Shown here piece after piece: positions 24,514-62,521 of a DNA stretch of 64,000 bases; within the stretch, counting starts at the first letter, position 1, and every line of letters starts with the position of its first letter. Origin of the DNA: Camellia lanceoleosa (Eukaryota; Streptophyta; Magnoliopsida; Ericales; Theaceae); NCBI GenBank assembly GCA_025200525.1, contig CM045763.1, positions 64,181,018 through 64,245,017 on the forward strand, written 5' to 3'. Under the pieces are notes generated by a model. That model ran no database searches and was not told where the DNA came from. It was given only the letters and a program-made list of their open reading frames with translations. The position numbers and the translations under genes are program-made.

Positions 24514-24522
24514 TATTTTTAA
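24514..24522. repeat. Left target-site duplication of the 10.4-kb MULE
   Basis: TATTTTTAA is repeated exactly at 34948-34956 on the far side of the element. A 9-bp duplication is typical of Mutator-like elements. Confidence 0.85.
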
Positions 24523-24546
24523 GGGATTTTAGGTCAAAACCCCCTT
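24523..24546 (+). repeat. Left terminal inverted repeat of the MULE
   Basis: Begins GGGATTTTAGGTCAAAAC and mirrors the right end at 34924-34947 with three mismatches. Confidence 0.85.
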
Positions 24547-24753
24547 CCATGAGGCCCATTAGGTGTAAAGCCCATGGATGAAAACAATTGTGCCAAAAGT
24601 CCCTCGATTAAAAAAATATCGTGATTTGACTGAAATGCCCATCCATATAAGGGTGCAAATACGAAACAATTGCACCGTTTCTCTCCCGTTCCTCTGTGTC
24701 ATCGATTCAAAACCCTCCTCTCTTTTGAATATGATCGTTCGAAACCCTAGGAA

Positions 24754-25015
24754 CGATTGAAACCCTTATCTGTCTCATTACTCTCGCTGTCTGTAGCTAG
24801 TTCGTTATAGTTTCTTCGATTGAAACCCTTCTCTCTCTTATTACTCTCGCTCTGTGTAGCTACTTTGTTACAGTTTCTTCGATTGAAACCCTAGCAACGA
24901 ACTCGGCATTAGGCTTTACTCTCTCTCTTAAACCCTTCTCTGAGTCTCATTACTCTCGCTTTGTGGAGCTACTTCGTTACAGTTTCGTGGATTGAAACCC
25001 TAGCAACGCTTTACT
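24754..25015 (+). repeat. Tandem repeats in the leader of the Ulp1-type gene
   Basis: Three to four copies of a roughly 63-bp unit start with CGATTGAAACCC near 24754, 24818 and 24881, with a shortened copy near 24989. Shared words are CATTACTCTCGCT and GAGCTACTTCGTTACAG. The CT-rich, GAAACCCTAG-rich style resembles plant 5' UTR DNA, and the block ends at a possible splice donor (ACAG/GTGATT, 25041). Confidence 0.75.
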
Positions 25016-25295
25016 CTCTCTCTTGGACACACATTTTACAGGTGATTTTTTTCTCTTTTTGCTAGTTTTTCGATATTATGAAGTCTGTCTGGGTTTGTTT
25101 TCATTTTGGGAGTGTGTGTATGAGATTACGTTGGGTGAGTGGAATTTGGGGATTTTTGGTTGCACTAATCATCTGTTCTAAAATTTTTATCACTATCTTA
25201 AAAATACTTTAAATTACTAAATCATGTGAAAATGTTAAGGATTGGTTTGAAAACTAATTTAGGTATTTTCAAAATGCTTTGAAATTCACTTGCTT

Positions 25296-26290
25296 CAGAG
25301 TAAAATTTTACTTCAAACTAGAGTAAAATTTTTCAGAGTAAAATTTTTCAGGGTAAAATTTTACATCCAACTAGAGTAAAATTTTACTCTGAAATGAGAG
25401 TTCTACTTCTTACAGAGTAAAATTTGACTTTAACTATAGCCTTTTGTTCAGTACGTTTTAATTTCTGTAGTGTTTTTGTCCTGCCATTTTAATTTGCTTC
25501 ATGAATTTTTCAGAGTAAAATGTTAAAATACACTTGTTTCATGAATTTTTTAGAGTAAAATTTTACTTCCAAAACCAGAGTAAAATTTTACTTATAATGA
25601 GAGTAAGTCAGAGTAAAATTTTACTTCCAAAACCAGAGTAAAGTTTTACTTATAATGAGAGTAAAATTTTAGTTATTAGAGAGTAAAATTTTACTTTAAC
25701 TCTAGCCTTTTGCTCACTACGCTTTAATTTTTGTAGTGTTTTGGTCCTGTCATTTCAATGCTTTCAAATTCACTTGCTTCATGAATTTTTCAGAGTAAAA
25801 TTTTACTTCCAATCAGAGTAAAATTTTACTTCCAATCAGAGTAAAATTTTACTTCCAATCAGAGTATAATTTTACTTTAACTCTAGCCTTTGCTCATTAC
25901 GTTTTGATTTCTGTAATGTTTTCGTCATGCCATTTCAATGCTTGCAAATTCACTTGCTTCATAAATTTCTCAAAGTAAAATTTTACTTCCAATCAGAGTA
26001 AAATTTTACTTATAATGAGAGTAAAATTTTACTTTTACTCTAGCCTTTGCTCATTACGCTTTGATTTCTGTAGTGTTTTTGTCCTGCCATTTCAATGCTT
26101 TCAAATATACTTGCTTCATGAATTTTTCAGAGTAAAATTTTACTTCCAATCAGAGTAAAATTTTACGTCCAATCAGAGTAAAATTTTACTTTTGCCAAAC
26201 AGAGTAAAATTTTACTGTCTCACGACAATACTTGTGCATTTTGTTTAGTGCTTATTTGTTTTGTGACATTGTTTAAAGTAAAATTTTATA
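25296..26290. repeat. Palindrome array A (AGTAAAATTTTACT), about 17 copies
   Basis: The self-complementary core AGTAAAATTTTACT recurs about 17 times by eye, often as a 23-bp unit with TCCAATC spacers, plus degenerate copies. Longer spacer units containing GCTCATTACG and TGCTTCATGAATTT also repeat. The array falls in the presumed leader intron (25041-26302) of the Ulp1-type gene. Confidence 0.9.
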
Positions 26291-26324
26291 CTGTTGATAC
26301 AGGGGAACTTTTTTGTGTTTGAAA

Positions 26325-29300
26325 ATGGTTGTTACAAGAAGCAAATATGGTAATGATGATGATGATGATGATTTTGAAGTTCTACCAACTGTTTTACAAA
26401 AGAAAAAAGTCCCTAAAAAAGTGAGCAAAAGTAGTAAAGAAAGTCCTTCAAAGTTGAATATTATGCATGGAGTACGGGAGAGGGAGAATTATATGAAACA
26501 ATATAGGTCAAATATTGTTTCATTGATAAACGTAATGCGAGACACAAGGTTCACTAAAAGACACATTACTACCCTTGAGAGAACACCTTTTGGAATGTTG
26601 TTTAAATGTTTTTGGAAGAAAGATGATGTGGAGTTAAAGAACTTCAAGAAAGTTGACGATAATGTGATGGATGTGATCAAATGTTATGACTTTCATGCAA
26701 AGGGATTTAAGCTTGGGGGGAAGATATGTGACATACGGGATAGTGACGTTACCTTGATTTTTGGGATAAAATCGGGAACGAAAAAAGTAGATGTGTCATA
26801 TGGGAAAAAACAAGAATCAGCTTTTGTGCAGAGAAGGTTTCGTAATTTGTCAAGAATATCTGTAAAGAGTTTGCGAGAGGCGTTAGGAGATGCGTTGGAA
26901 GGCACAACGAGAGTTGATATTGAGGATGTTGCACGCATAATGTGTCTATTTGTTGTGGCGACTTTGCTATTACCAACAACTGGTCTAACAGTTGGATGGG
27001 CCTTTGTTGCCCTTGTAGAAGATTTGGAAATGATGAATTCGTATGCATGGTCGACTGCAGTTGCATCCACGTTGACTACTTCAATCCATTCTTCATTAGG
27101 AAGTCCTGAAAATGTTACTGGATGTGTACTTCTTCTGTTGGTAAGTAAATTGAACTACTTGAAATATTATGCAATCTATCTTTAGAGAATTTAACTAATT
27201 TCGATTTTTTATTTTATAGTACTGGTTATGCGAGCATACTACCCTCATTCAACCTGAAGGAAAAAATTTGTGTCCAAGGCTCCTGCGATGGGACTTATCA
27301 ATATTGAGAAAAAAACTAATGAAGAGGTCATTGCAAACACTAAAGCCCGAAGAGGTATCATCTTTCCAAACTCAGCCCGAAGAGTAAAAGTTTACTTGAA
27401 ATCAGAGTAAACTTCTACTTTAAATCAGAGTAAACTTTTTCTTACATTCAGAGTAAAATTTTACTTAGTCTTGAACAGAGTAAAAGTTTACTTTAAATCA
27501 GAGTAAAATTTTACTTACTCTTCAACAAAGTAAAAGTTTACTTTAAATCAGAGTAAAAGTTTACTTTAAATAAGAGTAAAATTTTACTTACAGTCAAAGT
27601 AAAATTTTACTTGCTCTTGAACAGAGTAAAAGTTTACTTCAAATCAGAGTAAAAGTTTACTTTAAATGAGAGTAAAATTTTACTTACAGTCAGAGTAAAA
27701 TTTTACTTACTCTTGAACAGAGTAAAAGTTTACTTCAAATCGGAGTAAACTTTTACTTTAAATCAGAGTAAAATTTTACTCTGAGTCAGAGTAAAATTTT
27801 ACTTGCTCTACTTTAAATCATAGTAAAATTTTACTTACAGTCAGAGTAAAATTTTACTTACTCTTGAACGCAGTAAAAGTTTACTTCAAATCAGAGTAAA
27901 ATTTTACTTGCTCTTGTACAAAGTAAAAGTTTACTTTAAATCAGAGTAAAATTTTACTTACAGTTAGAGTAAAATTTTACTTACTCTTGAACGCAGTAAA
28001 AGTTTACTTCAAATCAGAGTAAACTTTTACTTTAAATCAGAGTAAAATTTTACTCTAGTGGTTAAAGTTTGCTTAATTGCTGGCTTCTTTTCTTTTTCTA
28101 TTTTTCAATTGCAGGTAAATCACAATGAATCAAGCCCGCTTTCCAAAGAAGAAATGGAACTCATTTGCAATGATGATGAAGAAGATGCTTTGGACATAGA
28201 GGAAAATTTGGAGACTGAAGAAGATTCATTGGACACAGAGGAAAAGTTGGAGACTGAAGAAGATGCATTGGACATGGAGGAAAAGTTGGAGACTAAAGAA
28301 GATGAAGATGATGTAGCTGAAATTTTAGGAGATGATCAACCTTTGAAGAACTTCATTGATCTTCAAAAGGAAAACAAGAGGCTGAAAAGTGAGAATCTGG
28401 CGTTGGTTGAAGAATTGAAGAAACTGAGGGAAACAATACAAAAAATGAAAGAGGAGCAAAACGTAAAAACAAAAGAAACGATGGAAAAGATGAGCAACAC
28501 AGAGAAAGAAATGGAGAAAATGAGAAAGGAGATTGAAGTACTTGAATCTGAAAATAAACAGTTGGTTGAACAGATTGAAGAAAATGCAGTTCATGCGGCT
28601 ACCCAAGGTTTATCTTCCAAAGAAATGCCACATGCTAAAGGAGTAGAACAAGAGGAAAACATTGGGATTCAAAGTACATTGGAAGAAATACCCATAGTCA
28701 TAGAGCCATTGCAAACATCCATGGTGAGGAAAATCAAAATCAAGTCGAAGAAGAAGAAAGAAATGTCTGATTTTGAATGTGAGCCAAGAAAAGCAAAGAA
28801 AAAAAAAACCAGAAAACAAGGAATTGAAGTGATGTCAAAACAAGTCATTTGTGTTGAAAACTTGCCTCTAAGCCAAGCAAAGCCAGTTGAAAATCAAGTC
28901 AAAGCAAAGAAAAAAAAAACCAGAAAACAAGGAATTGAAGTGATGTCAAAACAAGTCATTTGTGTTGAAAACTTGCCTTTAAGCCAAGCAAAGCCAGTTG
29001 AAAGGGTTTTGTTTCCAGATAAGGCTGCAATATGCAAATTGCTTGATGAGGATGACAAGTATCTACTGAACAAGATTTATAATTTGGAAACCACAGAGTA
29101 AGACCATGTTAATTTTATCAAACAACAGATTTTTACTATTATCCAACTGCAGCATGTTAATCAACATTTTTTTTACCTTATGACTAGTGCAATCATATGG
29201 TCCGGCACAAGACATGGAGTATATGTTACATTGCATGATGTGGATGCAATTCTGAGAGATGGTGATACTGCAAATAATGTAAGTGGCAATACAAGTTTCA

Positions 29301-30187
29301 ATGACTAGTGTTCACTTAAATAACTAAAAATAGTTCACTTTATTAATATATATTTAATTGATTTTTGTTTTGTAGGTGATTGACAGCTTCATAGAAATGC
29401 TTGAGATTGAGCTACAAGTCAAGAAGCCAGAAAAGAATAAATCATTCTTTTTCTTTAGCCTTTGCTGGGTAAGCCATCAATTTGTATTTAGTTTGAATTG
29501 ATAAATTTTTACTATGGTTTAGTGTAACATATCAGTGTCTCTTATACGATTAAATGCAGTCTTTAGTGAAATGGGGTTATGGGGAGCTGAGAAATCATCT
29601 AATTGATGAAGTCCTTGCACAAGATTTGAGTGGATATAGATACCTTCATTTTTGCATGAATTCCAATGGGAACAAAAAGGAAGAAAAACCCTACCACTGG
29701 ACACTCCTTTTATTTGACACTGAACTTGATGAGTGGAGACATTACAATTCTTTAAGGCCAAGAGACAACAGAGAAGATGATTACCTTAAGGATGCAAAGA
29801 AGATTGTAAGTGCTTTGCATCATATTAACAGTAATTTTTTGCTGTATTTTATTCTTGAATTTAATCCTGACCAAATAATTATGCAATGATGTTAGATAAC
29901 ATATGTGGATAGCAAGTTGGGCAACAAAATGAATAAAGGTACAAGAAAGTTTTCAAACTTAGTTTCGGTGAAAGATAGTCCACAACAACGCCCAACATCG
30001 TAAGTATTTCACGCTACTATTATATGCTTGAATTGGTAGTTTTCAAATTTGAGTAAATCTAACAAGCGATTGATTTTTATTTAACAGTGTTGATTGTGGA
30101 ATTATTGTATGTTATATCATGCGCCAAATCATAAGAGATGAGCCTATTCCAAATTCTATGGAAGATGATGAAATTAACAATTTCTGA
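26325..30187 (+). CDS. Ulp1-like (C48) protein with DUF1985-type N-terminus, MULE-encoded
   Basis: Exons 26325-27140, 27220-27354, 28115-29097, 29188-29278, 29376-29468, 29560-29805, 29896-29999 and 30088-30187 join in phase to 855 codons plus TGA. The N-terminus has an acidic DDDDDD run, then a region (TPFGMLF, ICDIRDSDVTLIFG) like the DUF1985/plant-mobile-domain part of MULE Ulp1 proteins. The middle is acidic with a coiled coil (about residues 410-500) and KAKKKKTRK nuclear-signal-like clusters. The C-terminal C48 domain shows His in YHWTLLLFD, Gln in SPQQRPTS and Cys in VDCGIIVC. The usual DSL aspartate reads NSL (HYNSL), so peptidase activity is uncertain. The stop is probably a CGA-to-TGA change, because the same frame stays open to 30292 with family-like text (VHQFLNDYPKAWTEEQFNL). 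The start ATG at 26325 follows an acceptor at 26302. Family members are linked to transposon biology, including anti-silencing VANC proteins. Confidence 0.8.
27383..28056. repeat. Palindrome array B, inside the second CDS intron of the Ulp1-type gene
   Basis: About 14 perfect GTAAAATTTTAC cores alternate with near-palindromic variants AGTAAAAGTTTACT and AGTAAACTTTTACT. A larger unit (motif, TACTCTTGAACAGAGT, motif) repeats. The array fills the intron 27355-28114. Confidence 0.9.
28791..29012 (+). repeat. 111-bp in-frame tandem duplication in the Ulp1-type gene
   Basis: Two nearly identical 111-bp units (starting at 28791 and 28902) encode two copies of a 37-residue segment with AKKKKTRKQGIEV followed by QVICVENLPLSQAKPVE. 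The units differ at very few bases, so the duplication is young. It doubles a basic, nuclear-localisation-like cluster. Confidence 0.9.
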
Positions 30188-30637
30188 GCGTCAATAGTGC
30201 ATCAATTTTTGAATGATTATCCAAAAGCATGGACTGAGGAACAGTTCAACCTCAAAAAAAAAAATGCGCTAGAGCTAAGACCTCAAGGATGACAATGTGG
30301 ACAAGTTTTGGGAAAGTACTGTGAATGATATATGTAATTTAGGTTTTTGTAAATGAAAGAACAGTGAAAAAGTGATTGTAAGTGAAAGAATACTAAGAGA
30401 GTATTAGATAGAGGCTTAAATTTTTTTTGACTGAATGTTGCTATGAATGTTGGAATGAATGTTGCTATGAATATTGTTTTGACTGGGAATGAATGTTGAT
30501 GATATATTTAGTTGTGTTGTTAGATTTTTTTTGCACAAAGATTGCATGATGATCATCAGGGGAGTTTGTGTGTTGTGGTAAACTTTGGTGCAGGTTGGAA
30601 ATGTTTTTCTAAGGGGACTAACATATTTTCTGAACTG
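30188..30637. other. 3' region of the Ulp1-type gene
   Basis: This holds the continuation of the reading frame beyond the TGA (to 30292) and then AT-rich DNA with short GAATGTTGCTATGAAT repeats (about 30430-30475). It is probably the 3' UTR. Confidence 0.5.
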
Positions 30638-31262
30638 AAGTAAAATTTTACTCTGAACTGAAGTAAAATTTTACTTTATATTCTAAAAGATGAGTAAATT
30701 GTTGCACTCTAAATCTAAAAGTAAAATTTTACTCTGCATGAAAGTAAAATTTTACTCTGCTTGAAAGTAAAATTTTACTCTGAACTGAAGTAAAATTTTA
30801 CTTTATATTCTGAAAGATGAGTAAATTGTTGCACTCTAAATCTAAAAGTAAAATTTTACTCTGAACTGAAGTAAAATTTTACTTTATATTCTGAAAGATG
30901 AGCAAATTGTTGCACTCTAAATCTAAAAGTGAAATTTTACTCTACTTGAAAGTAAAATTTTACTCTGCATAAAAGTAAAATTTAACTCTGAAATAAGAAT
31001 AAAATGTTACAGCCTGAATAAGTAAAATTTTACTCTGTATAAAAGTAAAATTTTACTCTGAACAAAAGTAAAATTTTACTCTGTATGAAAGTAAAATTTT
31101 ACTCTGAGGGTCGAGTTAAATTTGGACTCTAAATCTAAAAGTAAAATGTTACTCTGCACTAAAGTAAAATTTTACCCTCCATTAAAGTAAAATTTTACTC
31201 TGAAATAAGGTAAAATTTTAATCTAAAAGTAACATTTTCTCTGAATATAGTAAAATTTTATT
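30638..31262. repeat. Palindrome array C, between the convergent genes of the MULE
   Basis: About 14 cores of GTAAAATTTTAC lie here, mainly in the context AAAGTAAAATTTTACTCTG. A larger unit containing GATGAGTAAATTGTTGCACTC repeats about three times. The array separates the 3' ends of the Ulp1-type gene and the transposase. Confidence 0.9.
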
Positions 31263-31469
31263 GTCAAACCACAGGCTCATCACACCCATACACAACCATT
31301 CAACCACAAAACATATCAAAAACTAGAACAGACAACCATTCAAGGACGTAGTAAAAATGTATTTTATTGCAATGTTTCCTTACAAATCTACTCTAAAAGA
31401 CTATACTATTATTGCTATGGACTACTTATTGCAAAAGAACTGCATTATTTTCATACTTCTATTACAAAA

Positions 31470-33708
31470 TCAATAATGTCTTTCACGGCAATGCCTCATT
31501 GCAAGTCTTCCTATTATGACCAGATTTCGCATATACCGTGACTGCACTCGTCTTATCTTCTCACCCCTAGATGGGATCCTATTCTTCCTTGGCCTACCAG
31601 GTGGCTTCTTACAAATTGGAGGAAGGACAACAACATCATCCATAGCTACAAGAGGTTTCTCAACAGTGGGTATTGGATAAACGGACTCAGCATAGCAATC
31701 TTTGAACTTGCTAGTGTAATAAAATGGTTCCACATGTGCATACAAATCACCTCCGCTCTTTTGGATAGCGATGTCAGCGTGAGCACAAAGAAATCCATTC
31801 AATTGCCATTGGTAACATGAGCAAGTTCTATTCAAGAGGTCAACGCTAACCGATGGCCGGGATTGAACCTCAAAAACATGATCACTTGAACGACTAACCA
31901 ACCAAGTTCTTTCACTTTTAAGAGCATTTACTAATGCTGAATCTATCTCCGGACAAAGAAAAGTATTCCATTTCTTAGCTTGTTCTCTCCTTCTCGACAT
32001 CAAATCCATGATCTTCAACCTAATTGAATCAATCATCTTTGTAGTGGGCAAATGGTGAGCTTGACGGATCCATGAATTGAAAGACTCTGCCACATTCGAG
32101 TGCATTTCACCGTATTTTTGTCCTTTAAAATATGCATTAGTCCACTTGTCATAGGGCAAATTGGATAGAAACCCACAAACGATCCCTTTTCCCTCATCTT
32201 GTAATTCTTTCAAGCATCGATTAAAACATCCCAATCGGAGCGTAAGCACACGAAGAAAACAAAAAACTATTCTACTCTGAAAGTATTGTCAAACTTGGAC
32301 CAGAGAACCTATCCTCAAATTGGCCTTCAAGTGTTGGAGACAAAAATAGTGGTAAGCGATGAGGTAAAACCTTGGGTAAAGCCTCCAAAAGTCCAAAGTT
32401 CGATCAGATATGAAGGTAATTGGTCTTTCATCCAACAATATATTCGACAAATGCATAAAAACCATTCCCAATGCTTATAGTCTCCAGACGACAATTGCCA
32501 TTGCAAGAGGGAAAAAACCTGAAAAATAACATTTTACAATTAGTAAGTATATTAAATAAAAAGGACAAATCTGAGCTCAGAATAAGTAACTTGTTACTTT
32601 TGAATAAACTATAGTAATATCTACCTTGATCCCCATCCTTCGCTGTAGCTGTTAACAAGGTGCCCTTATATTTCCCCTTAAAAAAAGTTCCATCGATAAA
32701 TAATAGAGGACGACAATGCCTAAACCCTTGAATAGAAGCATTAAATGCAACAAAAAACCTCTTGAACCGTCCACTTTGATAGTTATAGTCAAGACGCAAA
32801 TAGCTATAAGGATTTGTGCTCATCACAATATCCATATACCATCGAATCTCATCATAGGACATAGAGAAATCTCCAAAACTAGTAGTCCTAGCTTTCTCAA
32901 CTCCCAACCAAGCGTGATTGTACGTAATGGTGAGCAGATATTGATCTCAGAATTGACGCACAACATCAATTGGACGAGTTTGGGGATTCCCACAAACTTC
33001 ATTAACAATCAAACTTACAACCAAATTTGAACTCATCCTTGAGTTTTTAGAAGTACGAACTGCAGCTCCACAAGTATGCTCATCATGTAGAGTCCTAATG
33101 TAGAAAAAATTATTAGCACTTTCTAGAGATGCATGTACTCGCCATAAACAAGCTTTCGATTCCCGCATTGAACACACAGCAGTGACCCGATACTTCTCAT
33201 TCTTCACATACACAAACTCAAATCCTATCTCAATAGCATATTTACATAATGCAGTCCGGAAATCCTTTGCACCTCCAATAAATCTTTGAACTACATGAGT
33301 AATTCCATTCACCCATCTACTAGACAACAAAGTCCTTTCTTCATGTTGACAAAACATAAGGAGTAAATCCATTTCATCATCAGTAATGTTGGATCCAGTA
33401 GCGTTCCCTGATTCTCTAACTCCATGTTTTTCATTTGAAATGCCCATTTCAGTAATAGTCACATCAATCCGGTCAACACCAAGGGGATAAACAAGCGACA
33501 ACATATTCTGAAAATCAGAATCATCATCAATCATGCATTGCGAATGTCCAGGCAAACAGTACGATAATAGTATGCAACCACTATTGTCAAACTTCTTCAA
33601 TTTACAACTTAAGAAATCAGTTAAATCCTTCAACGTGTAGTTTGACACAATCTTGAACACAATGGTACGATCACCATACTTGCATAACAACATAAGAGGT
33701 AGAACCAT
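31470..33708 (-). pseudogene. MuDR-type transposase, inactivated
   Basis: The start is the ATG at 33708, right after an acceptor-like TTTGCAG. Order of parts: a PB1-like N-terminus (CKYGDRTIVFKI); the MUDR zinc-binding domain (KYRVTAVC ... CLWRVHAS ... TLHDEHTC); and a DDE domain with first Asp in LLFIDGTFFKGKYKG, second in FISDR and Glu in NVAESFNSW. A SWIM zinc finger (CSCYQWQLNGFLCAHA) and a PPGRPRKNR AT-hook-like motif follow. Lesions: in-frame TGA at 32947-32949 (RQF-stop-DQY); offset frames near 32440-32490 around HWEWFL; a TGA near 32290; a one-base offset near 32228; and a C-terminal zinc knuckle (KSGHNRKTC) readable only in another frame near 31500. An intron is inferred between KDGDQ (about 32628) and FFPLAMA (about 32520). 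The protein cannot be made as one chain. Confidence 0.88.
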
Positions 33709-33730
33709 TTTACAAATCTGCAAACAATTA

Positions 33731-34291
33731 ACAGTAAAATTTTACTGTCACTATCAAAGTAAAATTTTACTATCAATATCAAAGTAAAATTTTACTGTCA
33801 CTACAATTTTGGTTTAGTTTGAATTGAAACATGAATCTAAAAGTAAAACTTTACTCTGCACCAAAGTAAAATTTTACTTTGATATAGGAGTAAAATGTTA
33901 CAAAAGGAATCTAAAAGTAAAATTTTACTCTGCATAAGAGTAAAATTTTACTATCACTACAATTTTGGTTTAGTTTGAATTGAAACATGAATCTAAAAGT
34001 AAAACTTTACTTTGCACCAAAGTAAAATTTTACTCTGATATAGGAGTAAAATGTTACAAAAGGAATCTAAAAGTAAAATTTTACTCTGCATAAGAGTAAA
34101 ATTTTACTCTGAAAAACAACTAAAATTTTTGCAGACAATTAACTTGTTTGGTGCAACTTTTTTGCTAGTTAAAAATTGGTAACTAAAATGCATAAGCTAA
34201 AAGAACATATCTCCCCTATCTTCTCAATAATCAAAATTTTACTTTAATTAAATGAGAGCAAATGTAACCAGAGTAAAATTTTACTCTGGTT
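33731..34291. repeat. Palindrome array D, upstream of the transposase
   Basis: About ten GTAAAATTTTAC cores lie here. An internal direct repeat of about 140 bp starts with the CACTACAATTTTGGTTTAG string near 33804 and again near 33955. The copy at 34266-34291 is a perfect 26-bp palindrome whose core is CAGAGTAAAATTTTACTCTG. The array abuts the acceptor before the transposase ATG, so it is probably in a leader intron, as array A is for the Ulp1-type gene. Confidence 0.88.
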
Positions 34292-34923
34292 CTATTGCTG
34301 TCTATTGTTAGATTAATAAGTCAATTTTACTCTGTGTCTTTTGTCAAAAACAAAATTCTGTCTATTGTTAGATTAACAAATCAACAAAAACAAACGAACT
34401 CGATCAAAATAAAAATAAATCAAACAAAAAAAAACGAACCAAAACAAAAAAAAAAAAAAAAAAAAATAATTAACAGATCTGTACAACTCGAGTAATTGAG
34501 AAGAAAAACCTGTACTCGATCAACAATCACAAAATTGAATGAAACTCTCGTTTAATTTGAGAGCGTTGATCACCGGCCACCAAATGACAGTTATTCGGCT
34601 GCGAGATCGTCTATTGTTGAACAATTGAGAGATATTCGGCTGTGAGATCTTCAGATCTGGAGGTCGTCTTCATCGATTTTGTGAAGTATGATCGATTTGC
34701 AGATCGGCTTCATCCTCTTCATCGGCTGCGAGATCTTTAGCTGTGATTTCAAAATTTTCAAACGTATGATACTATATATATATATATATAAGGGCAATAT
34801 TGTCATTAAAAAAAATAAAAATAAAAATTATAAAATATCCTTATTGAGGTAGGCATTTCTTACTCAGGGACTTTTTAAAAGAAAATTAATTAGATTATCC
34901 TTTATTCTAATAAAAAGGCCCAA

Positions 34924-34947
34924 AAAGGAGTTTTGACCAAAAATCCC
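34924..34947 (-). repeat. Right terminal inverted repeat of the MULE
   Basis: Read on the minus strand it begins GGGATTTTTGGTCAAAAC, mirroring the left end. It is followed immediately by the TATTTTTAA target-site copy (34948-34956). Confidence 0.85.
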
Positions 34948-34956
34948 TATTTTTAA

Positions 34957-44111: not shown

Positions 44112-44148
44112 TTGCTCTTATCTCTGAGCTCTGCATTAAGTTCCGGCA

Positions 44149-46028
44149 ATGAGGATTGAGGATATTCCGCCTTTAACACATACTCCACAGACGGAGAAGA
44201 CGAAGGACAAAGGTTTGGTACTCCCGACAGTTCTGGAGGAGCAAACTGGAAACAATAATCGAACCCCCGAATCCGTCGAGCATCGATTGCCCTTCGCCGA
44301 AGGTTCTTCTCATCATTTCCTTTTGGAAAAGGATTATAGAGATCGAATTATAGATTCCATGGGAATGGAGATACAGGAATTGAAAGCTCAACTTAAGAAA
44401 GTGTTGGGTGATCCAACGGAAAATAGGACGAAAGCAAAGCCCTCTCGTTTGCAACAAAGGAGCTCGTCCAAAGAACTACCAGTGAAAAAATTCCCCAGAA
44501 ATGACTCTGGACAACGAAGCCAACCTATCCCAACACAGAGTGAAGCGGCGAGTAGCCACACACGCGGGTCACACCGGAGGAGGGCCAAGAGGCAGAAGAC
44601 GGGTAGTCAACAACTGAATACCCTCCTCAGGACCTTCGTACTCGGCTGATTGACAATAGGCAGAACGAGCAACATCGAGATCATCTGGACCGTACTGTTC
44701 ACCAGAGAGAACATCAAGCGCTAGACAGACCAGTCTCTTCGCCATTCTCTCCGGAGATTGAGACCATGAGACCTCCCAAGAAGTTCACTCCACCAAAGTT
44801 CACTTCGTATGATGGGAAATCGGACCCTCTGACACATATCAGCCATTTTAGACAGATGATGTCCCTTTAGAGCCGAGATGAGGCACTGATGTGCAAAGTC
44901 TTCCTATCTAGCTTGGGAGAAACCGGACTCCGATGGTTCGATTGACTCCTCGCTGGATCAATTCATGGTTGGAAGCAGCTCTCCGAAGAGTTCCTGGCCA
45001 GGTTTGTCTCCAATACTAAGATCCCAAAAGAGCCGGATACACTGTTCGGCCTCAGAAAGGAGCAAGAGGAAACGCTGTGCAGTTATGCCAGGAGATACTG
45101 GGAAAAGTATAACGACCTAGAAGAAAATGTGTGCAGTGAGCAAATGGTCGTCATGTCCTTCAAACATGGTCTGCGCCCGGAAAGTAAGTTGAGACAATCA
45201 CTTATTAAGAGCCTGGCCACAGCTTTGAAAGACTTGCGCGCCAGGATTGAGCAGTATGCCCGCCTTGAAGACGATCAGATCCCTATCGAGGTAGTATCAG
45301 CAGAACAAGCAGCTCGCCCGAAAAAGAAAACTGACTGAGGAGAACACCGAGGGATTGCAGTGAATGAGGTGGATAAGTCCAAATCCCACGAAGCCATTGT
45401 GACTATGTTCAAGGAGCCAATCTATCGAATCCTGGAAAAGATCAAGAGAGAACCCTTCTTTGCTTGGCCGCCGAAAATGTTGGGAGATCCAGCTTGGCGC
45501 AATCAGAAGCTCAGATGCACCTACCACCAAGACAAGGGACATATGACCTAGAATTGTAGGGCACTGAAGCAATACTTGGAAGACCTGGTGGCAGCTGGGC
45601 ACCTGAGGGAATACATTGATCAGGGTAAGGAAGTGGCCGAACTGGGGAACCCACCTCCAGAGGCAAATGTTGAGCATCCACCCTGGCTGATAATAAATGT
45701 GATCCATGGGACAACGGCTTAGAAATCTGAGGAGGCACTGAAGGAAGAGATCGCTAAGGCTGCACAAATTCAACGAATCATGTCAGTGGAGCCGGCATCG
45801 AAAAAGGTGCGTACCGTACCTAAGTTCCCCCTGTGCACTGTTTCATTTATTAGCAAAGATTTAGAAGGCATACAACACCCACATACTGATGCATTAATTA
45901 TAACTGTTGGGATTGGGAAACGATTTGATGTGAAACGAGTCCTAGTAGATCAGGGTGTAGCAGACATACTGTATTATGATTTGTTCAGAAAGCTCGGCCT
46001 CTCTGAGCAGCATCTCACCCAGCCGTAG
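44149..46028 (+). pseudogene. gag and protease region of the Tat element, with stops
   Basis: The first open part (44149-44649) is a charged N-terminal gag region with a short coiled coil (MEIQELKAQLKKVL). After a stop, the retrotransposon gag (capsid) domain is readable from about 44765 (PPKFTSYDGKSDPLTHISHF, YARRYWEKYNDLEENV). It is interrupted by stops near 44868 and 44944. A C-X2-H-X4-H-X4-C zinc knuckle (CTYHQDKGHM) follows at about 45520-45560, with a TAG inside it. The protease has the motif VLVDQGVADILYYD near 45940; DQG is common in this lineage. A TAG at 46027 separates it from RT. Confidence 0.85.
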
Positions 46029-46033
46029 CCCCG

Positions 46034-48340
46034 TTGGTCGGTTTCAATTCACAGCCAGAATGGCCGCTCGGCAGAATAGTATTACCAGTTGTAGCGAGGA
46101 CGAAAACCCTCCAGATAGAGTTCTTAGTTATTAATACACCATCCCCTTATAAAGCCATACTTGGCCGCTCGTGGATTCATCAAATGGAAGCAGTCCCTTC
46201 AACCTATCACCAGCTCATCCGTTTTCTGACGGAACACAGAGTAGAGCAGATTTCAGGGGATCAAGTTGTGTCCAAACATTGCTTTATGGCAGCATCAAAG
46301 GCAAAACAACTCTACAACCGGGTACAGACGGTGGAAGTGGCCGGACAGCCAGTCTTGGAAGATGTGGGAGGAACTCCAGAAAAAAAGATGGTGGAGGATT
46401 TGGAGAAAGTCTTGATAAAAGAAGACAACCCGAAAAAGTACTTCCTAATCGGTACCTCGCTAGGCACTGATGAGAAACTTCAGCTGCTGGAATTGCTGAG
46501 GGAAAATATGGAGGTATTCGCATGGTCAGTATATGATACTCCAGGGTTGGACCTAGAATTTGCTTGCCACAAGCTCAACATCAATCCTTCAGCTCGGCCT
46601 ATCGTACAGAAAAGTCAGAGATCCTCAGTTGAGCACACCAAAGCAGTAATTGCCGAAATCGAAAAACTCCTGGCCTCGGGAGCAATCAGAGAAGTTCAGT
46701 ACCTGCAATGGCTGTCTAACACAGTTGTGCTCAAGAAGAAGAATGGAAAATGGAGAGTTTGTGTCGATTTCACTTGCTTGAACAAAGCCTGCCCTAAAGA
46801 TAGTTTTCCACTGCCTCGCATCGATCAACTAGTAGACTCAACAGCAGGGGATGAACGCATGAGTTTTCTAGACGCTTATAGCGGTTATCATCAAATACCA
46901 TTGTTCGGTCTGAATCAAGAAAAGACAGCGTTCATCATTTCGAGAGGGATTTACTGCTACAGAGTGATGCAGTTCGGCCTCAAGAACATCGGGGCGACCT
47001 ACCAGCGAATGATCACTCGGATGTTCAAAGACCAACTTGGGAAAACCATGGAAGCCTATATAGACGATATGGTAGTAAAGAGCAAGTTTGCTACAAACCA
47101 CCTCACAGACTTGAGAGAAGTTTTTAGCATCTTGAAAAACCACCAGCTTCGCCTCAATGCCTTGAAGTGCGCCTTCGGGGTAGGAACAGGGAATTTCTTG
47201 GGGTATATGGTCACTCACAGAGGAATTGAAGCGAATCCGCATCAAATCAGGGCAATGCAGGATCTCGAAGCGCCAACAAAGTCCAAGGAACTGCAAAAAC
47301 TAACCGGAATGGCGGCTGTACTGAATCGGTTTATTAGCAAATCCTCAGATCGGATGAAGCCTTTCTTCCAGCTCTTGAGGAAAAAGGCAGCATTTGAATG
47401 GAGTAGTGAATGTACCGAAGCACTGCAGAGTCTCAAAAGATACCTCAGTACACCCCCTCTATTATCCACTCCAACCGGAGAGGAGTCAGATTCTATCTAT
47501 CTAGCAGTCTCAGATCATGCCGTGAGCGCAGTATTAATTCGAGAAGTTGATAAGGAACAGAGACCAGTATATTACGTTAGCAAGACTTTACTAGATGTCG
47601 AGACACGGTATCTACCACTGGAAAAGTTAGCTTACGCGCTGCTTATCGCCTCAAGAAAGTTGCAACATTATTTCCGGGGGCATACCATTAATGTCCTCAC
47701 TGAATTCCCCCTCAGATCTGTATTTAGCCGAGCCGATTTCTCTGGCCGAACAGCAAAGTGAGCGGTAGAACTTGGTGAGTTTGACATTCGGTATCAACCC
47801 AGGACAGTAATCAAGGCCCAGGCCTTGGCGGATTTTGTCGCAGAATTCACTCCCACCCGTAGTAATCAACCGGAATCTGAAACGACAAAAGTGCACCATC
47901 GAACAAGAAAACCAGTAACCGGAAGCATGGAATCTCTTTATTGGAAACATTTGGCAACTCTACGTCGATGGTTCATCCAATAACCGAGGCTCGGGGGCAG
48001 GAGTAGTTCTTATCTCTCCAGAAGGATTTATCTGGGAACAGGCTCTCAGGCTAGGCTGGAAGGCTTCAAACAACGAGGCCGAGTACGAAGCGTTATTGGC
48101 CGGCTTGCGTAGCGCCGAACACTTCAGTGCAGAACAGCTTCTTGTTTTCAGCGACTCACAACTAGTGGTAAACCAGCTTTCTGGAGTCTACGAAACTCGA
48201 GATGAAAGAATGGCTATGTACACAGGCAAGGCCAGAGACCTACTCAGAAAATTCTAATCCATACGAGTGGAACGAATCAGTCGGGACAAAAATAGCTACG
48301 CAGATGCTCTGGCATGCCTAGGCTCATCAGTGGACACAAA
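46034..48340 (+). pseudogene. Reverse transcriptase and dual RNase H of the Tat element
   Basis: The open part to 47761 has the RT core: [46 protein letters not shown] and the catalytic [10 protein letters not shown], then the connected RNase H ([28 protein letters not shown]). After a TGA at 47761 and a frame change, a second RNase H follows, with LYVDGSSNNRGSGAGVV near 47960, NEAEYEALLAGL near 48075, FSDSQLVVNQL near 48150 and ADALACLGS near 48305. The extra RNase H is characteristic of Tat elements. Stops at 47761 and near 48256 make it inactive. Confidence 0.9.
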
Positions 48341-48426
48341 GGATGCCAGAAGAGTTTGGGTTGAGTTCGTACCAGAACCAAATATCGCATCTCCAGTCCT
48401 CTACAATAACTTAAGAGCCAAGCTGG

Positions 48427-49629
48427 ATGGATCCGATATTGGTCTTTCTGAAATCTGGTAAACTCCCCGAAGATAGAAAGGAAGCCAACAAGATCAGGCA
48501 TAAATTAGCTCGATTCTGGATCTCATCGTCTGGGAAGCTGTACAGACGTTCTTACCTTGGCCCCTACTTCCTATGTGTGCATCCAAATCTCGTCGAGAAT
48601 GTTCTCTACGAAATTCACGATGGGATTTGTGGATGCCACGTTGGCGGAAGGTCACTGGCGCACCGAGCCCTAACTCACGGGTACTGGTGGCCACGAATGC
48701 AGCAAGATGCACAACAGTATGTACAAAGGTGCGACAAATGTCAGAGGTTCGCTCCACTCATTCATCAGCCAGCCAAAACTCTCACTCCACTCACCAGCCC
48801 ATGGCCCTTTGTGCAATGGGGCCTGGATATTGTTGGACCACTGGCGCAAGGTACTGGGAACAGACGATTCTTCATTGCTGCAACTAACTATTTCACCAAA
48901 TGGGTTGAAGTTGAGGCATTGGCAAGCATCAAGGAGGCAGACACGAAGTGGTTTGTTTTGAGAAATGTGGTAGTGCATTTCGGCATTCCGCGGATACTGA
49001 TTACGGACAACGGAACACAGTTCGATGGGAAGATCTTCAGAAAATTTTGTGCTGATCTCAGAATTGAGTATAGGAACTCTTCTCCAGGGTACCTGCAGAG
49101 TAATGGACAGGCAGAAGCGTCGAACAAAACCATTATCAATGGAGTTAAAAAGTGGCTTGAACATGCCAAAGGCAAATGGGTTGAAGAGTTACCTCGTGTA
49201 TTATGGGCCTACAGAACTACAGCACGACGCCCCACAGGAGAAACACCTTACTCTTTAACCTATGGAATGGAGGCCATCATCCCACTTGAAGTAGGTCTCC
49301 CAACCCTTCGGTCTGAATTATTTGAAAGCTCCAGTAATGAGGAAGCTATCGCGCAAGCACTGGATATGGCAGAGGGCCGAAGAGAGGTAGCATTGATCAG
49401 ACTCGAAGCATATCAGCAGCAGCTCATCAGAAGTTTCAACCAAAAAGTTTTCCCAAGGCAGTTTATACCAGGAGAATTGGTTCTGAGAAAAGTCATGGAT
49501 CACAAACGGGTGCCTGGTGAGGGCAAACTTGGGCCAAACTGGGAAGGTCCCTATAAAATCACAGCCATTGCTGGAAATGGAGCTTACTACCTAGAGGATC
49601 TGAATGGCAAAGCAATACCTCGGCCCTAG
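48427..49629 (+). pseudogene. Integrase of the Tat element
   Basis: About 400 residues are still open. There is an HHCC zinc-binding module (IHDGICGCHVGG ... CDKCQRF), then the DDE core: Asp in LDIVGPL, Asp in ITDNGTQF and Glu in NGQAEASNKTI. A C-terminal GPNWEGPYKI domain follows. A stop (TAG, 49627) falls just before the expected last residues (NVANLKKYY). The domain is complete but is separated from RT by stops, so it is not made from a normal polyprotein. Confidence 0.88.
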
Positions 49630-58700: not shown

Positions 58701-60082
58701 AGGATGAAACAAATTTCCTCCACAAGACAAGAGGGAACATGTACATATGCACACCAAATCAAACTAGAGTAGCTGGAATATTATTGACTTCCAAATAAGA
58801 AGCAAATCACTGCTACAATACAACTCTAACCTGAGTCTTAAAAATGGCAACAACTTCAAAATTGAAGACACGTAAAATCCAAGATCCTAGAAGATTTCAA
58901 ACAAAAGTAGGCCCCTTGCAAGAAACAGCCCAATCCTCCGTTTCACATTTCTAAATTAAATGTTTTTGCACTTAAATTCACAATGGGGAACAAAATAGGA
59001 TACATGCTCCCAAGGCATTCGTAAACTAAACTCTTACCTAACATCCAAAGCAAGAGGGAGCTGAAAATTTCTCCAACAATTTTGTTTAGCATCATGGAAG
59101 AGAACAATCTGGTGGAGGAGGAATGGGGACCACATTTTTTTTTTTTGCGTCGGCTATAAGATGTTTGATTCACAAAATGTTATGGGATTGCTAGTCCAAC
59201 GGTGTTGCAAATCCCCAAACGGTGGGATTGGCAATACCATCCCCTTCTTATCCCATACTATATCCTAGTCTAATCAAAGATAGTACAAATACTCCACGAT
59301 ATATATAATCTCATCTTGTATCCTACTTGTTACTAATCCCGACCTTAATGCTATGGTATTATCAATCCAAACAGTACTAAAAAATCTAATCCACCTATCA
59401 AACATGGCCTAAAAGTCATAAAGCGAATAGCATTCAAACTAAACCACAAGAAAATATCCAAACAAATTCAAGCCATGTTTTTTTTTTTTTTTTTTCCCAC
59501 CACATCAGAATCTTTGCCAAGTGACACCCAACAAGCAAAGCAGAACAATTTCAGAACCCAATTCACAATCTCCAAACAATCCATCAATAACCACAAAAAA
59601 ACCAAACAAACCCAATTAACAAAAAAACCAATCTAAACAAACAACAACACAAAACCACAAAAAACAGAAGCAATATTCAATATCTTACATTCAGGAAAAG
59701 CAGCTTTCTGAACAATCCGCTCGAGCGTATCGTAAACAAACTTACTGTCAACAAGAAACCTCAAGTAGCCATCAATGGTTGGGACCCACTTGGCCACCGG
59801 CGGACCCTCCGCCTTCTTCTCCCCCTCCTTGGACTGGTCCTTAGTGTGCAATTTCATGGCCACAAACCTCATTTCCTCCACAAAGCCCTTCACCTCCCCC
59901 GGATACCGCTTCTTCGGCTTCTCCGCTGCCGTCGTCGCTGCTCTGCAGCCGGCGGAGGAAGACTTTCCGGTGAAATCGGGGTTTATGTTTATGGAGAACT
60001 TGGATGGAAAAATGCTTGGTCTGAATTGGATTTTGTTGAAAAGGGGTTGGGATTGGGAAATGGGTGTGAACGAAGCCATCAC
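55783..60082 (-). CDS. HO1: Heme oxygenase 1, chloroplastic (HY1)
   Basis: The enzyme cleaves heme to biliverdin IXalpha, CO and iron in the plastid stroma using ferredoxin. Biliverdin is then reduced to the phytochrome chromophore. Exons 60082-59689, 56766-56543, 56104-55997 and 55875-55783 join in phase to 819 nt (272 residues plus TGA), close to the usual plant length. The first ~50 residues are Ser/Thr-rich and basic, a transit peptide. Diagnostic stretches: [19 protein letters not shown], the proximal heme His at about residue 79 in MKLHTKDQ, and the distal-helix glycines in HTAGGRMIG at about 196-204. [18 protein letters not shown] lies near the end. Two adjacent ATGs start the frame; 60079 is an equally possible start. 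Intron 1 is long (2.9 kb) and holds repeats. The gene looks intact. Confidence 0.96.
57098..57134 (+). repeat. G-run tract, potential G-quadruplex
   Basis: Eight or more runs of three to eight G separated by single T bases lie in HO1 intron 1, on the strand that is template for HO1. Such DNA can form G-quadruplexes. A C-rich tract (CCCCCCCACCCCCC) follows at 57543-57557. Confidence 0.85.
57560..59150 (-). other. Middle of HO1 intron 1
   Basis: AT-rich intron DNA. No coding region or clear transposon end was found. CATCAGCAATTAAACAT and CATCAGCAACTAAACAT near 58410 and 58530 are parts of a short duplicated block. Confidence 0.4.
59151..59412. mobile_element. MITE-like element in HO1 intron 1
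   Basis: GGCTATAAGATGTTTGAT at the left mirrors the complement of ATCAAACATGGCC at the right. GGATTGGCAATACC and GGTATTATCAATCC form an inner inverted pair. The size and style fit a small DNA transposon derivative. A target-site duplication was not confirmed. Confidence 0.5.
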
Positions 60083-60572
60083 GAGGAAGAGTAATTTGAT
60101 GTGATTTTTGAGGAAGAGAGAGAAATGAAGAGGGTTCTTGAGGCTTTATTAAGTCAAAGCGATAGATATAGATGTGTGTATAGGTTTTTCAGTGTATGAG
60201 AATGGTGTGTGTGTACCGGTGAGAGTCTGCTTCCATGGATGTGCTTTTTCTTTTCTCTTTCTTGTTTGGAACAGAAAATTGTGTTTTTTTCCAGGAAAAG
60301 GCAAACAGAGGTTTGCTTTGGGTTATGTCATTGTTGGTGGGAAATTACGGCGTCGTTTTGATAAGGTAGAGAGAAGTACGGCGTGGTTTTGGGTGATTCT
60401 TTCTTGGTTTGTGAGACTTGGCATTTTTGGTGCCATGAATTTGGAAAGAATAAAATGAAAATTAAAATTGAAAGGTTGAAGATGAAGCTTAAATCCTTAA
60501 AAAAAATGCTTTAGAGCTTTAATAGTTCTAATAGGGAGAGTCATTTTTTTTTGTGTGTTTTGTTTATTACTT

Positions 60573-60925: not shown

Positions 60926-62521
60926 GTGATTATTTCATTTTTACTCCTATTCTTTTACACGATTTTCATTGCCCCTAGACTATTCTTATTTTCATGCATA
61001 CCTCTATACTATTTAAGTTACTATCAATTTTGTCTATGTCGTCATATTTGAAATAGAAAACGTTAAAAAAATTACATTTTAGCCCTAAATTTCAAAATAA
61101 AGATGCAAACCAACTCTCCTAACACTTCTTCAACCCGCAGACGAATTGTTTCGATTCAACAATGTCGACACCAGCCCTCCTAACACTTCTCCACCAAACG
61201 CGACTTCTTGGGATAAATCCTTGCCATTATTGAAATCTCCATGGTTCGCTCACGCCGTTCAAATTGATGATTACTATTCATACACAGGGCTAATGGGTTC
61301 TCTTGTTCGTGAAAAAGGCCATATATACTTGCTTGCCACCTCTGGCGACTTGTTATACACTGGTTCTGATAGCAAGAACATTCGGGTATGGAAGAATCAG
61401 AAGGAGTTTTCTAGGTTCAAATCTAATAGTGGGTTAGTTAAAACCATTGTAATTGCAAATGAAATCATCTTCACGGGCCATCTAGACGGGAAGATTTGAT
61501 TATGGAAAGTATTTGCGAAGAATCCAACAATTCACAAACGAATCAAGACTTTACCCACGTTGAAACCTTATATAAAGTGCTCGATCAATCCGAGCAATTA
61601 TGTTGAGGTGAGAAGGAATTGCAATACGGTTTGGATCAAACATTTCGATGTGATTTTGTGTCTTAGTTTGAGCGAAGACAAATCTTTGTTATACTCAGCT
61701 TCTTGGGATAAGACAATAAAGGTTTGGAGAGTATCGAATTTGAAATGCTTGGAATCGATTCATGTTCATGATGACACAATGAATGCGATGGTTGCAGGAT
61801 TTGATGGGTTGGTCTTCACCGGCTCCGCAAATGGGATTGTCAAGATATGGTGGTGAAAGATGCAAAGGAAGGGTACCAAACACTTTTTTTCACAGAATTG
61901 CACTACATGGGTTGTAATGTTTTGAAATTTTCAAAATTAGTTTTCAAACACCTTTCAGCATACCAAAACCGCTCATTACACGAAGAAGTGAGAAAGCAAG
62001 GTAGTATAGGGCGAAGCAGGAAGTAAAGTGAAGAGAATAGCGAAAGAATAAAGTAGAACCGTCAAGAATCGAGAAATATATGAAGTCTAAAAAATGGCTC
62101 GAAGAAAAATAAAAAATGAGAAGAAAAGACTTTTTTTTAAAATTATTATCAACTTTCGAAGCTTTGATAACATCCAAAAAGGAGAAGAACGAGACGTGTG
62201 AGATGTAATACGAAAACTAAACCGTGAGTTGAATCCAACGACGTAAAAATGAGACGAAACAGAGTTATGACGAAAGAGATAGAAGGGCTTGAAGTGGTGG
62301 TTGGTGGTGGTGGTTTGCTGGTAGGAAATGATGGGTTTGCATATTTCTTTTGAAATTTGGGGCCAAAATGTAATTTTTTTAACGTTTTCCCTTTCAAATG
62401 TGATGGCAGGGGCAAAATTGATAGTAACTTAAATAGTATGGGGGTACGCATGAAAATAAGAATAGTCTGAGGGGTCATTGAAAATCGTGTAAAAGTATAA
62501 GAGTAAAAATGAAATAATCTC
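60926..62521. mobile_element. Pack-MULE, 1.6 kb, with long TIRs and captured WD40 gene fragment
   Basis: Long inverted repeats of about 187 bp (60926-61112 and 62334-62521) start GTGATTATTTCATTTTTACT and GAGATTATTTCATTTTTACT. They remain highly similar along their length (for example AACGTTAAAAAAATTACATT in both). A perfect 9-bp target-site duplication AAACTAAAA flanks the element (60917-60925, 62522-62530). Long TIRs plus a 9-bp duplication define a classical MULE, and the interior is a host gene fragment without a transposase, hence Pack-MULE. It lies about 840 bp upstream of the HO1 ATG. Confidence 0.9.
61113..61920 (+). pseudogene. Captured JINGUBANG-like WD40 fragment
   Basis: Matches plant WD40 proteins of the JINGUBANG-like group: GSLVREKGHIYLLATSGDLLYTGSDSKNIRVWKNQ, then LVKTIVIANEIIFTGHLDGKI, KTLPTLKPYIKCSINP, NYVEVRRNCNTVWIKHFD, LLYSASWDKTIKVWRVS and GLVFTGSANGIVKIW. 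About four blades are present; the usual seven are not reached, and similarity ends near 61920. TGA at 61497-61499 replaces the expected Arg codon (GKI-stop-LWKV), and another TGA lies at 61855. The fragment has no introns, as is usual for this gene group. It is not a functional gene. Confidence 0.85.

Follow-up and report, generated by a model that had tools for sequence, protein, structure and literature searches.

A MULE of Camellia lanceoleosa with a VANC-like gene and non-coding arrays of a palindromic word

The locus analyzed here raises the question of whether a DUF1985/Ulp1-type protein encoded by a MULE in C. lanceoleosa recognizes a short palindrome that is repeated throughout the non-coding DNA of the same element. 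Passages in two papers (PMC5735166, PMC10398659) describe a precedent: VANC proteins bind to short motifs that recur in the non-coding DNA of cognate copies, which then lose their silencing marks, and RNA-directed methylation works on regions that overlap the VANC targets. The whole stretch of DNA that was analyzed (64 kb, hereafter the window) contains the element at positions 24523 to 34947.

Anatomy of the element and its palindrome arrays

The initial annotation described a bounded MULE with terminal inverted repeats and a perfect 9-bp target-site duplication, and this description holds: of 24 positions the two ends share 21, and TATTTTTAA flanks the element on either side (table 1). According to passages of PMC6446971, MULEs of the VANDAL clade have a 9-bp target duplication and terminal repeats that are absent or short and degenerate. 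The window element shares the 9-bp duplication, and its terminal repeats are short (21/24 bp) yet present. As in a VANC system, a MuDR-type transposase gene and a DUF1985-class gene lie side by side inside one MULE. The transposase was compared in pieces only, and separate pieces matched the profiles DBD_Tnp_Mut (4.9e-12) and SWIM (8.3e-6). Because the transposase gene is broken, the window copy is non-autonomous as it stands.

Table 1. Features of the window element and of two gene-less elements (positions of L035 and L036 are those of the respective locus)
Feature	Position	Strand	Remarks
Target-site duplication TATTTTTAA, left copy	24514..24522	.	perfect 9 bp
Left terminal inverted repeat GGGATTTTAGGTCAAAACCCCCTT	24523..24546	+	21/24 positions equal to right end GGGATTTTTGGTCAAAACTCCTTT
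Array A	25300..26289	+	palindromes: 17 exact, 24 at ≤1 mismatch; putative 5'UTR intron of VANC-like gene
VANC-like gene	26325..30187	+	GT-AG exon model, 8 coding exons, 855 aa
Exons of VANC-like gene	26325-27140, 27220-27354, 28115-29097, 29188-29278, 29376-29468, 29560-29805, 29896-29999, 30088-30187	+	
Array B	27384..28053	+	palindromes: 14 exact, 26 at ≤1 mismatch; within the second intron of the modeled VANC-like gene
Stop codon ending VANC-like protein	30185..30187	+	30 to 46 residues short of the C-termini of P0012, P0009 and P0014
Array C	30640..31261	-	palindromes: 15 exact, 20 at ≤1 mismatch; separates the 3' ends of the two genes, which converge
MuDR-type transposase gene, broken	31470..33709	-	in-frame stop 32947-32949; frame changes ~32520 to ~32250
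Array D	33734..34284	-	palindromes: 10 exact, 14 at ≤1 mismatch; putative 5'UTR intron of transposase gene
Right terminal inverted repeat GGGATTTTTGGTCAAAACTCCTTT	34924..34947	-	21/24 match to left end
Target-site duplication TATTTTTAA, right copy	34948..34956	.	perfect 9 bp
Gene-less MULE-like element L035	1931-3048		1,118 bp; perfect 9-bp duplication TCTGATTTA; 10 exact sites, 11 with up to 2 mismatches
Gene-less MULE-like element L036	2201-3588		1,388 bp; duplication with one mismatch; 6 exact sites, 10 with up to 2 mismatches

The palindrome GTAAAATTTTAC occurs 56 times in exact form in the window (0.03 expected from shuffles), always between 25300 and 34284, and both the transposase stretch (31470-33720) and the eight exons of the Ulp1-type gene are free of these sites. 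The earlier count of about 55 copies, essentially all in the non-coding DNA of the element, is thereby borne out. Allowing one mismatch raises the number to 84 sites, all within the element, and allowing two gives 91 within it and four elsewhere in the window. The core was also said to be a 14-mer, and 41 of the 56 exact sites are indeed 14-bp perfect dyads, AGTAAAATTTTACT. The word differs from published VANC motifs, as had been noted: the element contains no YAGTATTAY (VANC21) and a single AGTTGTMC (VANC6).

The sites are grouped in four arrays. Array B takes up most of intron 2 of the VANC-like gene model, and arrays A and D may each lie in a 5'UTR intron, since each precedes a start codon and is bracketed by splice-like borders (for array A, CAG/GTGATT and TACAG/GGG as read from the sequence, with the slash at the border). 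The flanks in array C run in the opposite orientation to those in arrays A and B. When sites were anchored on one half-site, the opposite half was 86-100% conserved, and most positions at least four bases outside were conserved at 33-72%. Comparison of the arrays with one another gives 94-96% identity for the core and 24-49% for the flanking spacers; for units exactly 23 bp apart, spacer identity reaches 48-74%, and the four arrays therefore probably share an ancestor. The distance of 23 bp is the commonest between neighbors in the window and accounts for 320 of 647 gaps (gaps of up to 80 bp) pooled over copies of this family (family 1). In the set of 84 sites, the central pair accounts for 15 of the 28 mismatches, and ten of these 15 represent one variant that is restricted to array B. 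The arrays are nearly free of CpG (7, 3, 1, and 0 in arrays A, B, C, and D, 11 in 2,833 bp), in contrast to the element ends with ~28 CpG per kb. A 26-bp perfect dyad at 34266-34291 in array D is built around the core.

Outside the element, the window contains the remains of a Ty3/Gypsy-type retroelement at 44140-49629 (matches to gag, reverse transcriptase, RNase H, and integrase) and two host-like reading frames, neither of which matched Pfam at 0.001. By eye, we take the frame at 59633-60145 (-) to resemble a plastid haem oxygenase and that at 61101-61499 (+) a WD40 protein.

The VANC-like protein and its relatives

The gene model has GT-AG at its exon borders and a single open frame of 855 codons, and relatives agree with it in parts, namely exon 2 (Rhododendron, Vaccinium) and the C-terminal region (P0012, P0014); the spliced Ulp1/DUF1985-type protein of the initial annotation thus stands as a model. 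The best Pfam match of the whole protein is PMD (2.4e-6, 27.4 bits, under the curated cut-off of 34.9), followed by Peptidase_C48 (4.4e-4, 20.6 bits, 0.1 bit under the cut-off of 20.7) and DUF1985 (3.1e-3, 17.9 bits, under the cut-off of 35.1). The exon-1 frame alone matched DUF1985 at 1.8e-4, likewise under the curated cut-off, and the relative P0012 matched C48 above the cut-off (5.8e-6). By motif, His752, Asn769, and Cys826 are the predicted Ulp1 catalytic residues; the middle place is Asn in both the window protein and Rhododendron, in contrast to Asp in SENP8. A structure model of the Ulp1 part was too poor for use (pLDDT 40.8). Residues 400-428 display a leucine zipper pattern which, together with the dyad symmetry of the site, makes binding as a homodimer plausible.

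Two protein searches, each scoring only the nearly 8,000 candidates with the most shared words, returned 11 relatives (eight from Camellia, one from Rhododendron, and two from Vaccinium) and 70 relatives, respectively. Camellia proteins predominate, with fragments up to 94% identical, and the proteins of 72 relatives contained no translated traces of the palindrome. The predicted DUF1985/PMD domain of one relative matches the VANC21-DNA structure 9lnj. The fold comparison used a model of this relative rather than of the window protein, which points, by way of the relative, to a predicted DUF1985-class DNA-binding domain with the VANC21 fold. At the sequence level, no VANC21 chain was found among the matches listed (best 60 of 69, and four more), in a searched set that may lack that chain. 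No close relatives were found in viral contigs by two DNA patterns, and at the protein level none of the five viral stretches that fit a peptide pattern was confirmed as a relative; the paired motif was not found in prokaryote genomes.

Copies, gene-less elements, and related families in one genome

The 2,999,249,670-bp assembly that contains the window was searched for the word. Overall, GTAAAATTTTAC occurs 15,241 times, compared with 1,120 for the reversed control, and exact pairs spaced by 23 bp occur 2,916 times, compared with none. The initial annotation proposed to ask whether the word is enriched only in this MULE family, and enrichment in the genome was found. Of the first 50 listed places, all on contig C1, 36 have another site within 500 bp, and the 14 isolated ones count against the VANC-type explanation favored below.

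Two dense clusters among these 50 places led to two gene-less elements, L035 and L036, which retain terminal repeats at both ends together with arrays. The VANC-like protein and three transposase pieces found no match in either (tblastn, E 0.01). All 239 rows of DNA matches between L035 and the window element fall within the arrays, as do 165 of the 168 for L036; the other three map to array D or its immediate vicinity, close to the right end. A long dyad with the arms AACCAGAG...CTCTGGTT is present in all three elements, with 26 bp in the window (34266-34291), 34 bp in L035 (~2626), and 30 bp in L036 (~2774).

That these gene-less elements keep both terminal repeats and arrays would also be expected if the palindromes were sites for the transposase or an accessory transposition protein and the VANC-like protein did something else. 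The joint inheritance of transposase and arrays and the closeness of the end of array D to the transposase start agree with such a role. In En/Spm-type sub-terminal arrays of transposase sites, the repeats adjoin the element ends. Here, the first and last palindromes are 777 and 663 bp away from the ends, the 24-bp terminal repeats contain none, and the arrays occupy introns (array B by the gene model, A and D putatively) and the space between genes. Furthermore, a DNA-bound structure is available for a relative of the DUF1985-type domain, and passages in PMC5735166 describe VANC21 as binding to motifs that are short and repeated. We regard a transposition site as an unlikely explanation for the palindromes, and recognition by the VANC-like protein is preferred.

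Exon 1 of the VANC-like gene identified further members of family 1 in the assembly: 40 of 137 candidate places were scored, and 35 (window counted) are near full-length and 92-100% identical. A non-random choice of 20 of the 39 loci other than the window was examined, and all 20 contain the word, with 4-61 exact copies each. Left terminal repeats were found by a loose pattern in ten of the 20 (L009-L017 and L020), mostly the closer ones. In two loci (L027 and L028) exon 1 is interrupted (matches 1-121 and 121-816 lie apart), and GTAAAAGTTTAC is relatively more frequent. Substitutions in the coding region weakly suggest that the protein is under constraint: the ratio of non-synonymous to synonymous changes is 800:467 (1.71) across the 20 copies, compared with a neutral expectation of 2.59, and 199:85 (2.34) in the ten close copies L009-L018, which is near neutral. 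A further 40 changes across the 20 copies lead to stops.

Array segments range over 1057-1162 bp for A (11 copies), 504-881 bp for B (17), 560-1286 bp for C (17), and 495-652 bp for D (3). This wide variation implies fast turnover, as expected if the arrays were neutral tandem repeats, passengers expanded by slippage, with drift accounting for the motif differences between families. The rates of change in core, spacers, and other non-coding DNA were 0.020, 0.062, and 0.025 in L009-L018 and 0.057, 0.142, and 0.075 in L019-L028; the spacer rate is inflated by misregistration of the arrays, which confounds the evidence for constraint on the core, and an ungapped comparison of core and spacers between copies left no pair that passed the filters. 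Neutral expansion is nonetheless improbable in view of a dyad that is 94-96% common to four arrays with different spacers, of related families with their own words in non-coding DNA, and of arrays carried by gene-less elements as well.

A paralogous family 2 (P0045), with a domain 37% identical, was sampled at four loci (L029-L032) picked for long gene matches, from a search in which 51 of 19,114 candidates were scored. These loci contain no exact family-1 word and 29-40 copies each of CAGAGAAAWTT, and the 10-mers AGAGAAAATT and AGAGAAATTT lie outside the coding matches in all four, with the exception of two sites in L031. For a third lineage (P0060), 136 of 5,193 candidates were scored. One locus, L033 (35% identical), lacks the words of families 1 and 2 and contains 20 copies of TGATAAATTT (0.15 expected) and 12 sites near TGATAAATTTATCA (0.6 expected). 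L034, from a subgroup at 71%, has four TGATAAATTT in 5 kb and no full site, and because this locus is weak the third family rests on L033 and a genome-wide excess of 8,917 against 248. A loose pattern found no terminal repeats in L029-L033, and the status of these loci as MULEs is putative. Many matches of the third lineage occur as same-strand pairs ~9-12 kb apart, often with one ~85% and the other ~70% identical, as if a single element held two DUF1985-type genes of unlike sequence.

Protein and motif thus vary jointly over the window and 20 loci in family 1, four loci in family 2, and one clear and one weak locus in the third, and the co-divergence that the initial annotation proposed to look for is present, with the third family represented by one clear locus. 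This co-variation is silent on which protein binds, because the transposase and the VANC-like gene are inherited together. Judging from the words themselves, the half-sites of the three families (CAGAGTAAAA, CAGAGAAAWTT, and CAGTGATAAATTT) appear to be related. Among the candidate readers of the words, a host factor shared by the families was rejected on the grounds that each word is exclusive to its family.

Array B is intronic by the gene model, and arrays A and D are putatively so; this, together with the scarcity of CpG in the arrays, would fit sites that serve intron-mediated expression or insulation by recruiting a host factor, be it a chromatin or AT-rich-DNA protein or a small-RNA or splicing process. 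Such recruitment would not predict unlike words in related families of one host, and we consider it very improbable.

Relation to known systems and meaning

Taken as a whole, the explanation that we hold to be likely is that the window element belongs to a multi-copy MULE family and carries an anti-silencing module of the VANC type, in which the element's own protein binds AGTAAAATTTTACT and acts on cognate copies only. The VANC-like system proposed at the outset gains support from the fit of the relative's DUF1985/PMD domain to the VANC21-DNA structure and from the joint change of protein family and motif. In the proposed mechanism, the DUF1985/PMD-type protein would bind the 14-bp dyad, probably as a homodimer via a coiled coil, at targets that recur, for the most part at 23-bp intervals, in introns, promoter-side DNA, and 3' non-coding DNA. 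The bound protein would remove or block silencing marks on cognate copies only, both autonomous and gene-less, and the Ulp1 domain may have a role in anti-silencing. Each family would serve its own members, given that the words differ between families of this genome whose proteins are related.

To the extent that it can be read from DNA, the anatomy of the element fits the established VANC model. VANDAL21 (Hiun) of Arabidopsis thaliana is likewise a MULE with a transposase and a DUF1985-class protein, VANC21, and a short motif tandemly repeated in non-coding DNA that differs between related families, according to passages in PMC5735166; the fold of the DNA-binding part (9lnj) is shared as far as the model of the relative indicates. 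The window element differs in its site (a perfect dyad of 14 bp, spaced mostly by 23 bp, compared with YAGTATTAY) and in its short but clear terminal repeats, and may differ in its Ulp1 domain. VANC genes with an Ulp1 domain inside a MULE (Kaonashi, KIU) are described in parts of a 2026 review (PMC13317346), which reports that such genes are conserved in eudicots and that KIU-carrying VANDALs are hypomethylated through motifs; the Camellia system has another host and another motif. The independent origin suggested by the initial annotation is not supported, in view of this conservation and of the predicted fold shared with VANC21. PMD is also the domain of MAIN and MAIL1, described as host silencing factors in the source passages, whereas the PMD of the window protein is located in a mobile element with target-like arrays.

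The kind of system is thus already known, both for Ulp1-carrying VANC genes and for VANC diversity in eudicots. A 2022 EMBO J paper is said to report that VANC systems have diversified since their origin in eudicots and that motif density and helical spacing are important, and parts of the present findings may already be printed there. The palindrome as text was not found in the literature searched, whose scope excluded most subscription papers, and no title on a Camellia VANC system was among the matches listed, though PMC10801548 contains both "Camellia" and "VANC". Apparently new are the dyad-symmetric, regularly spaced word, the several words for related families in one Camellia genome, and the gene-less carriers of arrays.

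In the literature covered, anti-silencing proteins with known DNA words come from Arabidopsis, and the loci described here would add a second plant lineage. With families that exist side by side and have their own words, a relative of solved fold, and sites in the thousands, it would become possible to test how protein and target co-evolve; words of 10-14 bp make swaps of domains or words feasible, and the VANC-type proteins are candidates for the sequence-specific removal of silencing. We lean slightly toward the broader view that at least three VANC-type protein families radiated in one genome, each with a word built on a related half-site that two of the families read by means of dimers on dyads, and that the genome holds sites in the thousands as well as gene-less target carriers. 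If true, this three-family radiation would constitute a natural series for the joint change of a transposon protein and its DNA word.
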